From contig NZ_JACCBZ010000001.1 of assembly GCF_013408825.1 (NCBI RefSeq), positions 310,001-374,000 on the forward strand: DNA of 64,000 nucleotides, read 5' to 3'. The position numbers and the translations under genes are program-made. The notes below the pieces were generated by a model. It was not told the DNA's origin and did no database searches. It saw only the letters and a program-made list of their open reading frames with translations. This document shows, one piece after another, positions 4,357-7,311 of this stretch. Source of the stretch: Mucilaginibacter tundrae (lineage in GTDB: Bacteria > Bacteroidota > Bacteroidia > Sphingobacteriales > Sphingobacteriaceae). Numbering within the stretch: position 1 is the first letter of the stretch; every line of letters begins with the position of its first letter.

Positions 4357-5142
4357 TTATTTCAAACCTTCCACAAATTCCCGCATTGCCATTCCGGGAT
4401 CTGCTTGCTTCATAAAATTTTCACCAATTAAAAATCCGTTAAAGCCTGCTTTTTTCAACTCTTTTATAACATCCGTATTGCTTATGGCACTTTCCGAGAT
4501 CTTCAAAAACTCCTTCGGAATATGTTCGCCCAATTTGAATGAGGTTTCTACCGAAACAGTAAAATCGGCCAAATTGCGGTTGTTTACGCCGATGGCATCC
4601 ACATTTGGGTTGATACTGCGTTCCAGTTCTTCCAGGTTGTGAACTTCCAGCAACACATTTAAACCCAAGCTTTTTGCAAGCGAGCCTAATTGCTGAATTT
4701 GTGCAGGGGTAAGTATCGCCGCGATGAGCAAAATAATATCAGCGCCTAAAGCTTTAGCTTCAATCACCTGATATTCATCAATCATAAAATCCTTACGCAA
4801 TACCGGTATGGTATTAGCCTGCCTTGCCCTGATCAGATCTGCTTTGCGGCCCATGAAAAACTGTTTATCAGTTAAAACCGATAGAGCAGACGCGCCAGCC
4901 TCGGCATAAGCATTTGTTACCGCCGCAACTTTTACCTTATCGTTGATGATACCTTTTGAGGGCGACTTACGCTTAAACTCAGCTATAATACCAGTGCGTT
5001 CCGGATCTAACAAGAAATCCCTGAACGAATAAGTATCTCTTGCGAAAAATTCTGATTCCTCCAACTGAGTAAAAGATGTTTTATTCTTAGCCGATGCAAC
5101 TTCCTTAAGTTTATTGGCAACTATTTTATCTAAAATGTTCAT
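4357..5142 (-). CDS. trpC: Indole-3-glycerol phosphate synthase
   Basis: 261 residues, the usual size for a monofunctional TrpC (beta/alpha barrel). It closes carboxyphenylamino-deoxyribulose phosphate to indole-3-glycerol phosphate. The active-site segments are EFKRKSPSKG (residues 55-64), VLRKDFMID near 114-122, LEVHNLEELE, IGVNNRNLADF and a phosphate-binding FLIGENFM near the C-terminus. Its ATG overlaps the trpG stop by 4 bases, so the two are translationally coupled. Confidence 0.95.
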   Translation of the reverse strand: MNILDKIVANKLKEVASAKNKTSFTQLEESEFFARDTYSFRDFLLDPERTGIIAEFKRKSPSKGIINDKVKVAAVTNAYAEAGASALSVLTDKQFFMGRKADLIRARQANTIPVLRKDFMIDEYQVIEAKALGADIILLIAAILTPAQIQQLGSLAKSLGLNVLLEVHNLEELERSINPNVDAIGVNNRNLADFTVSVETSFKLGEHIPKEFLKISESAISNTDVIKELKKAGFNGFLIGENFMKQADPGMAMREFVEGLK

Positions 5143-5711
5143 GCGCCTATCCAGTTAGCCATCATTTCTTTACCAAATTCTGTTAATATCGATTCCGGGT
5201 GAAATTGTACACCGCGTACATCGTACTCCTTATGCCTTAATGCCATAACCGAATTATCTTCTTCATCAATCGCGGTAACAGTTAATATGTCAGGTATAGA
5301 CTTTTCATCTACCACCCACGAGTGGTACCTGCCTACTTTAAAGCTTTCCGGCAAACCAATAAAAAGTTTTTCGGTTTGGTCGGTTACTTTTATTGGTGTG
5401 GCGATACCGTGCATGGGTTGTTTTAAATTGTACAATGCGCCGCCAAACACCTCGGCAATAGCCTGTTGACCTAAGCAAACGCCAAAAATACTTTTAGTAG
5501 GTGAATATTTTTTGATCACATCCAAAAGCAAACCGGCCTCAGAAGGTATTCCCGGGCCTGGTGATAAGATGATCTTGTCATAAGCATCCACATCCTCGAT
5601 CTTAAATTTATCATTCCTCCAAACTTCGCATTGCAGGCCAATCTCGTTAACCAGATGCACCAAATTGTAGGTGAAGGAATCGTAATTATCTATTATTAAT
5701 ATATTTTTCAT
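5139..5711 (-). CDS. trpG: Anthranilate synthase component II (glutamine amidotransferase)
   Basis: 190 residues, class I glutamine amidotransferase that supplies ammonia to TrpE. The catalytic triad is visible: Cys79 in GVCLGQQA, and His171 and Glu173 in VQFHPES. SPGPGIP at 50-56 is the oxyanion region. It begins 1 base after trpE and ends inside the trpC start. Because trpE sits immediately upstream, the tryptophan role is favoured over PabA, although a dual function cannot be excluded. Confidence 0.93.
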   Translation of the reverse strand: MKNILIIDNYDSFTYNLVHLVNEIGLQCEVWRNDKFKIEDVDAYDKIILSPGPGIPSEAGLLLDVIKKYSPTKSIFGVCLGQQAIAEVFGGALYNLKQPMHGIATPIKVTDQTEKLFIGLPESFKVGRYHSWVVDEKSIPDILTVTAIDEEDNSVMALRHKEYDVRGVQFHPESILTEFGKEMMANWIGA

Positions 5712-5712
5712 C

Positions 5713-7122
5713 TTATAATTCCTCCGCTAATTCAATGGCTTTTCTTAATGCCGCTATTTTGTTATCCACTTCTTTTAATTCACTTTCGGCTATAGAACCA
5801 GCAACAATTCCTGCTCCCGCCTGGTAATGCAATGTGTTGTTCTTGCTTAAAAATGAGCGGATCATGATAGCATGGTTAAAGTCGCCGTTAAAGCCCAGGT
5901 AGCCAATGGCGCCACTGTAAAAACTACGTTTAGTTTTTTCGTTTTCGTCGATGATCTCCATAGCGCGGTATTTTGGCGCTCCGCTTAATGTACCGGCGGG
6001 GAAGGTATCAGCAACAATCTTAAATGAAGCGACACCCGGTAAAAGCTTGCCGCTTACATGCGATACCAAGTGGATGAGGTGCGAATAATATTGTACTTCT
6101 TTAAATGCTTTAACTTCTACCTGTTCGCAATGCCTGCTCAGGTCATTGCGGGCTAAATCAACCAGCATCACGTGCTCGGCCGACTCTTTTGGGTCTTCGA
6201 TAAGTTTTTGCGCTAATTCGGCATCCTTAATATCATCACCTGTACGTTTGAATGTTCCGGCTATTGGGAAAATACTGGCGATCCTATTTTTAATAGTGAT
6301 CTGTGCCTCCGGCGATGAACCGAAGATCCTGAAATTGCCATAATCGAAATAAAATAAATAGGGCGACGGGTTGATAGAACGTAAAGCCCGGTAAACGTTA
6401 AACTCATCACCCAAAAACTTTTTAGAGAAAGCACGTGACGGCACGATCTGGAAAACATCGCCGCGGTAAATGTGCTGCTTCATCTTTTCAACTATAGCCA
6501 TAAAGCCTTCGTTGGTTAAGTTGGATTGTTCAGCCTCATCGCTTTTGAAGGTATATTCCGGGAAGTTTTTATTCTTGATCAGGTATTCTATTTTCTCGAT
6601 CCCTTTGGCCGCGTTTTGTCCCTCGGGTTGATTGTAGGAGATGTACAGCTCGTTTTTAAAGTGATCGATGGCGATAACGTAACGATACATGTTGTACTGC
6701 ATCTCCGGAATCTTTTTGCTATCGTCATCAGTCTTTTTTAGTTTGATGGTTTCAAAATGCTCAACTGCTTCGTGAGTGAAGTAGCCGAACAAGCCATTCG
6801 AAATAATCTTCAAACCGGTTTCATTAGTTTCGAAACTGCTTAAAAAAGAATTGATCTGGTCTATCAGTTCAAATTCTCCAGACTTATAGGCTTCGATGGC
6901 ACCATCGGGATATTTCTTTTTTAGTTCGCCATCGTTCAATAGTAATCCGGCAATAGGTTCGCAGCAGATGTAACTAGTACTGTTTTCACGACTGTGATAG
7001 TCGGAGCTTTCCAGTAAAAGCGAATTTGGGAATACATCCCGCAGGCGTAAATATATGCTTACGGGCGTAGTAGTATCGGCAAGTAGTTTTTTATGTGTGG
7101 TAATTATTTTAAACTTTTTCAT
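5713..7122 (-). CDS. trpE: Anthranilate synthase component I
   Basis: 469 residues. It converts chorismate plus ammonia to anthranilate and is the first enzyme of the branch. The N-terminal domain has LLLESS (residues 35-40), the tryptophan feedback-binding motif that separates TrpE from PabB. The C-terminal chorismate-binding domain shows FQIVPSRAFSKKF, NPSPYLFYFDYG, GSSPE, HVMLVDLARNDLSRHC and FPAGTLSGAPKYRAMEII. It is the first structural gene of trpEGC and lies behind the leader peptide and terminator at 7143-7273, so expression probably follows tryptophan supply. No trpD, trpF, trpA or trpB is seen after trpC. Confidence 0.95.
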   Translation of the reverse strand: MKKFKIITTHKKLLADTTTPVSIYLRLRDVFPNSLLLESSDYHSRENSTSYICCEPIAGLLLNDGELKKKYPDGAIEAYKSGEFELIDQINSFLSSFETNETGLKIISNGLFGYFTHEAVEHFETIKLKKTDDDSKKIPEMQYNMYRYVIAIDHFKNELYISYNQPEGQNAAKGIEKIEYLIKNKNFPEYTFKSDEAEQSNLTNEGFMAIVEKMKQHIYRGDVFQIVPSRAFSKKFLGDEFNVYRALRSINPSPYLFYFDYGNFRIFGSSPEAQITIKNRIASIFPIAGTFKRTGDDIKDAELAQKLIEDPKESAEHVMLVDLARNDLSRHCEQVEVKAFKEVQYYSHLIHLVSHVSGKLLPGVASFKIVADTFPAGTLSGAPKYRAMEIIDENEKTKRSFYSGAIGYLGFNGDFNHAIMIRSFLSKNNTLHYQAGAGIVAGSIAESELKEVDNKIAALRKAIELAEEL

Positions 7123-7142: not shown

Positions 7143-7174
7143 AAAAAAACCCGGTGAATTATATTCGCCGGGTT
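7143..7174 (-). terminator. Attenuator terminator of the trp operon
   Basis: A hairpin with arms 7148-7159 and 7163-7174 (12 positions, one C-A mismatch, 3-base loop) is followed on the minus strand by seven U residues. It lies about 20 bases before the trpE start and after the Trp leader peptide. This is a textbook intrinsic terminator. Its 5' arm contains CCGGC, which can instead pair with GCCGG at 7223-7219 just after the Trp codons, giving a possible antiterminator. Confidence 0.85.
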
Positions 7175-7207
7175 CCAAATAGGTTTACAATTGGTTAATC
7201 TATAAGA

Positions 7208-7273
7208 TCAAATAGTATCCGGCTGCCAATTTTGTTGGTGCCACCACAGGTTAGTTTGGTAGATTTTGATCAT
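7208..7273 (-). CDS. trpL: trp operon leader peptide (21 residues, three Trp)
   Basis: A short frame from ATG at 7273 to TGA at 7208 encodes 21 residues with tandem Trp at 10-11 and a third Trp at 16 (context NLWWHQQNWQPD). Three rare Trp codons in 21, directly upstream of a terminator and trpE, identify an attenuation leader. A stall at the tandem codons would leave GCCGG at 7223-7219 free to pair with the terminator arm. A stall at the third Trp would cover it. The start lies only about 8 bases after the promoter box, so the mRNA has almost no 5' leader. Confidence 0.82.
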   Translation of the reverse strand: MIKIYQTNLWWHQQNWQPDTI

Positions 7274-7281
7274 AGCGGGAG

Positions 7282-7311
7282 CAAATTTATAAAGAAAATT
7301 GAATTTGCAAA
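7282..7311 (-). promoter_or_regulatory. Bacteroidota-type promoter of the trp operon
   Basis: On the minus strand TTTG (7311-7308) is followed after 18 bases by TAAATTTG (7289-7282). This fits the Bacteroidota housekeeping consensus of TTTG and TAnnTTTG. Transcription should begin near 7277, only a few bases before the leader-peptide ATG at 7273. Confidence 0.75.

Follow-up and report, generated by a model that had tools for sequence, protein, structure and literature searches.

A predicted tryptophan attenuator upstream of trpEGC in Mucilaginibacter, with a leader start codon close to the predicted RNA 5' end

Introduction

Attenuation in response to tryptophan (Trp) is a textbook mechanism, and the trpE locus of the soil bacterium Mucilaginibacter tundrae raises the question of whether its trp genes are controlled in this way and, if so, by what RNA design. 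In the 64,000-nucleotide stretch of DNA analyzed here (the window), trpE (5713..7122), trpG (5139..5711) and trpC (4357..5142), all on the minus strand, are followed by hflX. The product of trpE, anthranilate synthase component I, gave its best equivalog match to NCBIfam TIGR00564 (422.6 bits, under the curated cut-off of 517.7) and is 98% identical to the closest named TrpE, that of Mucilaginibacter sp. L196; trpG (TIGR00566, 193.5 bits) and trpC (NF001377, 302.2 bits) matched above their cut-offs. Upstream on the same strand lies a 148-amino-acid open reading frame (ORF; 7775-7329) with zero NCBIfam matches at E ≤ 0.001. The analysis below concerns the interval between this ORF and trpE, which would be the regulated gene.

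Leader ORF and terminator

A first-pass annotation had described a promoter, a 21-codon leader with Trp at codons 10, 11 and 16 and a terminator before trpE, and the sequence agrees with this description base for base. The trpL-like leader ORF, MIKIYQTNLWWHQQNWQPDTI, comprises 21 codons and a TGA stop codon (7273-7208, minus strand; ATG 7273-7271, stop 7210-7208) and carries the putative regulatory tandem Trp10-Trp11 (TGGTGG, 7246-7241, minus strand; Trp10 7246-7244, Trp11 7243-7241). It is preceded by a -33 promoter element, TTTG (7311-7308, minus strand), read directly in the sequence, and a -7 element, TAAATTTG (7289-7282, minus strand; consensus TAnnTTTG), which puts the predicted +1 at about 7277. 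Downstream, an intrinsic terminator, AACCCGG...CCGGGTTTTTTT (7174-7143, minus strand; 5' arm 7174-7168, 3' arm 7154-7148, T-run 7149-7143), ends in seven T's, 20 nt ahead of the trpE start at 7122. The annotation had also proposed pairing between GCCGG (7223-7219) and CCGGC (7171-7167), and both motifs were located exactly there; the latter, strand 3 in what follows, lies inside the 5' arm of the terminator.

Recurrence among relatives

TrpE was matched in 60 of 61 Mucilaginibacter genomes, and 58 upstream regions were usable after G009 and G047 (partial TrpE) and G057 (without TrpE) had been left out. All 58 contain a leader with tandem Trp codons (WW), and the TGGTGG of Trp10-Trp11 is invariant in the 58 rows of alignment A1. 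A search of the family recovered TrpE at E ≤ 1e-100 in 53 of 61 genomes, and 51 of the 53 upstream regions were read (G067, which has internal stops, and G101 were left out). When these were pooled with the genus, a tandem or near-tandem Trp leader was present in 103 of 106 upstream regions (69 WW, 29 WWW and 5 WxW). In 102 of the 103 family sequences, moreover, a hairpin followed by a T-run scored at least 10 in our script. We looked for relatives lacking the Trp codons or the terminator, a finding that would have spoken against the annotation, and the counts for genus (58/58) and family (103/106) brought no refutation. Nearly every TrpE-bearing genome sampled in the family has the predicted trpE attenuator.

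The three upstream regions without the tandem all belong to one genus, g3 (L063-L065), where the trpE attenuators carry one Trp instead of two at the conserved site. This trio still matches the attenuator model with 65-81 bits, and these attenuators possibly sense Trp more weakly.

Further afield, a class-wide draw of 80 genomes gave TrpE at E < 1e-80 in 27. Among 26 further loci from this draw, read by eye, 18 showed a WW, WWW or WxW leader and eight had no acceptable leader, one of them lying 10 nt from a contig end and one behind trpB. A leader was also picked in 77 of 80 named loci, the exceptions (L185, L188 and L190) being no leaders; this set overlaps heavily with the sampled genomes and was kept out of the genus and family counts.

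The first Trp is codon 10 in 82 of the 103 family leaders, as is the first regulatory Trp of E. coli trpL, and this position possibly reflects a footprint or timing constraint.

Promoter and start codon

An exact TAnnTTTG box stands 7-12 nt before the leader ATG in 56 of the 58 genus upstream regions, the remaining two having a variant box; in the family, 88 of the 103 sequences have the exact box, at a distance of 5-12 nt. The median gap between box and ATG was 8 nt (over 87 family sequences), and the ATG of the window likewise starts 8 nt past its -7 box. The 12 nt ahead of the leader ATG were searched for GGAG, AGGA and GAGG, which occurred in 0 of 103 family sequences; Bacteroidota ribosomes make little use of Shine-Dalgarno pairing.

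With the sigma-A box of Flavobacterium psychrophilum reported to span -12 to -5 (PMC9723704), +1 falls at 7277 and the 5' UTR in the window is predicted to be 4 nt long; predicted UTRs would measure 3-8 nt in the genus and 1-8 nt in family sequences with the exact box. Published figures give a background for this gap, UTRs of less than 10 nt amounting to about 3.7% in B. thetaiotaomicron (PMC7366714) and leaderless mRNAs to 5.5% in F. psychrophilum (PMC9723704), the window itself having given three usable ORFs out of 44, too few for a background. The first-pass annotation had remarked on a leader ATG almost at the mRNA 5' end as unusual, and the comparison upholds this as a sequence feature kept across genus and family, with +1 predicted from the -7 box. 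Indeed, the closeness of the leader start to the predicted 5' end is conserved and is the most unusual feature of the element, and it would make the leader AUG a clean case for testing how ribosomes of Bacteroidota can load in time for attenuation.

As the 5' end is a prediction from the -7 box, the attenuator might be real while its leader is normally read on a longer transcript that starts upstream, in which case ribosomes would not load by way of a near-5' start codon. Only 17 bases separate the stop of the 148-amino-acid ORF (7329) from the -33 box; by eye they hold no terminator, and read-through from this ORF is possible. However, 57 of 60 sequences in the genus, and 21 of 43 from other genera, have TTTG-N17-21-TAnnTTTG directly ahead of the leader ATG (within 14 nt), and the gap between box and ATG is held to 7-12 nt in the genus, which makes a longer transcript as the usual template unlikely.

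A His-rich leader peptide, MGRFNLHHLHLHHRHHMATR, is found ahead of hisG in the same genome (locus L255, contig C4), with its ATG 33 nt from a TATATTTG box and hence not near-leaderless. The idea that leader peptides of the genome generally have a near-leaderless start was rejected because of this 33-nt gap and of gaps of 8-22 nt at attenuators of the RF01692 type in eight genomes (see below).

Leader codons

Within codons 2-9 of the leader, changes numbered 26 and 29 at second and third positions and 8 at first positions. Second and third positions vary alike, so that there is no clear sign of selection at the peptide level. This bears on a further possibility, namely that the terminated RNA, some 135 nt long, or its peptide has a further activity in trans, like rnTrpL and peTrpL of the alphaproteobacterium Sinorhizobium meliloti. 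The two RNAs would be similar in form: the leader ATG of S. meliloti trpL/rnTrpL lies at or next to the mRNA 5' end, the transcript there beginning exactly at the ATG, and it is in that organism that activity in trans was reported (PMC7298713). Given leader codons with no clear sign of peptide-level constraint, we see a slim chance that such an activity accompanies the attenuator here.

The first-pass annotation had counted the third Trp (codon 16; 7228-7226, minus strand) among the features of the leader. It is present at codon 16, as described, but is not conserved as a sensor, since a third Trp within eight codons past the tandem occurs in only 16 of 60 genus sequences. The letters of this codon form part of RNA strand 2 (see below), and GGCAGCCGG recurs in 39 of 60 genus sequences, the preceding letter lying in frame 0, 1 or 2 in 11, 22 and 6 of them. 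This pattern indicates that selection at this site is acting on the RNA strand and not on the codon. A stall at the third Trp would favor termination, and its loss in relatives is therefore unsurprising.

RNA pairing and covariation

Besides the terminator and the GCCGG/CCGGC pairing, both of which stand, the predicted RNA contains two elements that the first-pass annotation had missed, a protector hairpin and a long-range helix. In the protector, strand 1 (GGCACCAA, 7235..7242, minus strand) pairs with TTGGCAGCC of strand 2 (TTGGCAGCCGG, 7219..7229, minus strand), which can alternatively pair with strand 3 through its GCCGG. The protector is closed by the long-range helix, in which strand A (GATCAAA, 7265..7271, minus strand, from the start-codon G), in the 5' part of the leader, pairs with strand A' (TTTGATC, 7206..7212, minus strand), which follows shortly after strand 2 and overlaps the leader stop codon. 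The antiterminator 2:3 and the terminator are mutually exclusive, strand 3 being part of the terminator arm.

In the genus alignment, in which 4 of 58 rows (L028, L031, L032 and L034) are misaligned at strand 2 and were kept in, all four CCAA/TTGG pairs of the 1:2 protector (columns 39-42/51-54) show two-sided changes, with 95.2% of cells paired. The terminator helix (columns 120-129/144-152) is 96.9% paired, with two-sided changes in three of eight pairs, and its loop-side pairs (134-135/142-143) are only 51.0% paired. For A:A' (columns 4-9/71-76) the figures are 80.2% and three of six pairs, and the pair made by the start-codon G (columns 3/83) is held in only 59.3% of cells.

Taken together, A:A', 1:2 and the terminator have 87.0% of cells paired and 56 two-sided cells, against a shuffled mean of 17.0 and none as high in 500 shuffles. 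The whole structure exceeded 500 of 500 shuffles in paired cells, two-sided cells, pairs with two-sided changes and covariation score; its number of further pair types was reached by 5 of 500. Slid controls scored lower throughout.

Comparison between genera extends this picture. On genus means, all 18 genera had a cognate A duplex that was stronger than the between-genus swaps, by a mean of 3.05 kcal/mol, a difference drawn mostly from one to four sequences per genus and to which shared base composition could add. The test is weak in g12, where about half or more of the swaps equal or exceed the cognate duplex in strength, and in g16, where this fraction is about 0.4. The 2:3 pairing (GCCGG/CCGGC) is nearly invariant within the genus, without covariation, and is therefore uninformative there; between genera strands 2 and 3 change together (GCCGG/CCGGC, GTCGGG/CCCGAC and TGCGACAAGGCTT/AAGCTTGTCGCA). 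Both conserved Trp codons and covarying stems, which the first-pass annotation had suggested seeking upstream of trpE in Sphingobacteriaceae, were thus found on comparison.

These results weigh against the view that the hairpin is merely constitutive, or terminates the 148-amino-acid ORF (7775-7329), and that the leader ORF is a chance reading. The hairpin would indeed stop read-through from that ORF, and the letters taken alone are not remarkable: the pattern TTTG-N4-12-ATG-N6-30-TGGTGG, which joins promoter letters, ATG and TGGTGG, is not beyond chance, with two occurrences in the window against 0.73 expected and at least two in 21 of 100 shuffles. Predicted folding energy on its own is also only modestly special (-30.6 kcal/mol for 7273-7139, z = -2.15; 5 of 200 shuffles fold as well). 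The element exceeds chance through where it lies, ahead of trpE, and through its recurrence: in 58 of 58 genus genomes trpE is preceded by a conserved promoter followed by a WW leader and, moreover, the alternative pairings co-vary, so that a constitutive hairpin with a chance leader is very improbable.

Ribosome-stall model

We modeled the ribosome with a 30-nt footprint and calculated P(2:3), per strand-3 nucleotide, at the stage at which strand 3 has been made and strand 4 has not yet been made. L054 was excluded from the structure tests on account of a terminator score under the limit, leaving 102 sequences. A ribosome stalled at the first Trp left strand 2 wholly outside the modeled footprint in all 102, and mean P(2:3) was 0.66 with the ribosome stalled, 0.25 without a ribosome and 0.09 with the ribosome at the stop codon. 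By a margin of more than 0.05, stalling gave a higher P(2:3) than the ribosome-free state in 90 and than the stop in 97 of 102 sequences; it gave a lower value in none in either comparison. At the stop codon the ribosome covers at least half of strand 2 in 76 of 102 sequences and less than half in 26.

The window sequence is among the 12 of 102 without a clear rise of the stalled over the ribosome-free state, its P(2:3) being 0.42 upon stalling at Trp10 or Trp11, 0.00 at Trp16 or the stop and 0.40 without a ribosome. The stall geometry put forward in the first-pass annotation, in which the tandem Trp frees the antiterminator and the third Trp does not, was thus reproduced (0.42 versus 0.00), with the ribosome-free value already at 0.40. 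In the equilibrium fold of the window sequence before strand 4 is made, P(1:2) is only 0.12 and the protector is not favored; together with the ribosome-free P(2:3) of 0.40, this means that the model does not predict low basal expression in the absence of translation for the window sequence.

Proposed mechanism

Although trp genes elsewhere are controlled by TRAP or T-boxes, sensing of Trp by the TRAP protein, a T-box or a Trp-binding riboswitch is scarcely credible here, as the conserved tandem Trp codons would then have no role, TRAP (PF02081) has no match in the genome (0/1) while the control matches in B. subtilis, and no T-box is found in the window at the Rfam gathering threshold (where the sole match is a tRNA) or among seven weak matches at E ≤ 10. 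A search for TrpR, whose TrpR-family controls matched in both B. subtilis and E. coli, likewise gave nothing in the genome; among the Trp sensors tested, no known alternative was thus found.

We hold with high confidence that trpEGC in Mucilaginibacter is preceded by a ribosome-mediated transcription attenuator. The predicted promoter, the near-5' start codon, Trp10-Trp11 and the putative terminator are conserved; A:A', 1:2 and the terminator co-vary within the genus and 2:3 between genera, as judged from the sequences compared. Translation of the leader peptide is predicted and very probably serves as the Trp sensor.

We suggest that RNA polymerase would begin the transcript some 4 nt ahead of the leader AUG and that a ribosome would load at once, without a Shine-Dalgarno sequence. 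When charged Trp-tRNA is scarce, this ribosome would stall at codon 10 or 11 and mask strand 1, whereupon strand 2 (GCCGG) could pair with strand 3 (CCGGC), no terminator would form and trpEGC would be transcribed. With ample Trp, the ribosome would reach the stop codon and either cover strand 2 or let 1:2 re-form behind it; with strand 2 covered or held in 1:2, the terminator would form and transcription would end at about 7143. If no ribosome has loaded, 1:2 closed by A:A' would be expected to hold strand 2, leading to termination. As strand A reaches the start codon in Mucilaginibacter, A:A' could also bar late ribosomes.

More tentatively, and with doubt outweighing belief, the trpE attenuator of the Sphingobacteriaceae may be a distinct, near-leaderless design that takes a single Trp reading per transcript. 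Its first ribosome would have to start ahead of the synthesis of A', at an AUG within a few nucleotides of the 5' end and unaided by Shine-Dalgarno pairing; A:A' would then tie down the 5' part of the leader, shut out later ribosomes and stabilize the protector.

Conserved stretch before the terminator

A conserved stretch, TTAACCAATTGTAAACCTA, ending in AAACCTA (7198-7180, minus strand), precedes the terminator, and our comparison found no pairing or role for it. Of 59 genus sequences, 54 carry AAACCT ahead of the terminator, and it is also found there in 6 of 17 other genera. We rejected the stretch as a decoy for the base of the terminator 3' arm, with 11 of 17 other genera lacking AAACCT there. 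An AAACCTA-like stretch also precedes three other terminators of the genome found with R1, a model built in this analysis (L257-L259; motif 16-19 bits). When 47 strong terminators in the window and 400 kb of contig C3 were scanned, the motif scored 28.9 bits at the trpE terminator and did not exceed background at any other (best value 3.6, with controls reaching 2.8), and a role as a general terminator element was rejected. Eighteen other matches above 9 bits in the same sequence had, by eye, no clear terminator behind them.

Relation to known trp attenuators

The element belongs to a known class of trp attenuator and, on the comparative evidence, is very probably working. E. coli trpL also has its tandem Trp at codons 10-11, a four-strand logic and a terminator before trpE; the element described here differs in having none of GGAG, AGGA or GAGG before the leader (0/103), a predicted 4-nt UTR and no TrpR match. 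Its distinctive traits are the conserved start codon near the predicted RNA tip and the helix that would tie down that end. A search of openly available full texts on attenuation in the phylum, judged in part by titles, brought up no description of the trpE element. Large comparative surveys of attenuation exist and may cover it.

The first-pass annotation had regarded a clear example of Trp attenuation in this phylum as worth recording, the classical descriptions being from Proteobacteria. As a novelty for the phylum this does not hold, as Bacteroid-trp (RF01692), a cis-regulatory RNA of Bacteroidetes, has been in print and in Rfam since 2010 (Weinberg et al. 2010, PMC2864571). In F. psychrophilum, of the same phylum, there are strong clues of leader-peptide attenuation before amino-acid biosynthesis operons, in a paper whose main text does not contain the word tryptophan (PMC9723704). 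Bacteroid-trp resembles the window element in occurring in Bacteroidota with WW or WWW leaders before trp genes, and differs from it in the sequences of the strands. RF01692 did not match the window element either at the gathering threshold (49 bits) or at E ≤ 10.

Up to E = 10, RF01692 finds a single site in the genome (51 bits), a second trp attenuator (locus L217, contig C3:200913-201030, minus strand) before trpD-trpF-trpB, with the leader MKSIKLNNNWWWLNERS and an ATG 8 nt past a CATATTTG box. Both halves of the split trp pathway thus appear, from predicted elements, to be under Trp attenuation in one genome, and Rfam's RF01692 model catches the trpD half only.

We read eight RF01692-type matches, five over the cut-off and three just under, the trpD element of this genome among them, and all have WW or WWW leaders. 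In seven of the eight, trpD or trpB lies downstream, L218 being cut by a contig end, and at these eight loci 8-22 nt separate the leader ATG from the TTTG of its box, versus 7-12 nt in the genus trpE set. R1 weakly cross-matched several of these loci (L211 and L224, 38.4 bits; L221, 33.7; L214, 33.3; L220, 29.5) and gave only 17.3 bits (E 1.5) on the trpD element of the same genome; kinship between the trpE element and the RF01692 element before trpD is possible. At L224 (G205, from elsewhere in the Bacteroidia), an RF01692-type attenuator (78 bits, leader MRSILVNTYWWRYLQLNKS) precedes trpB, and trpE follows farther along that strand.
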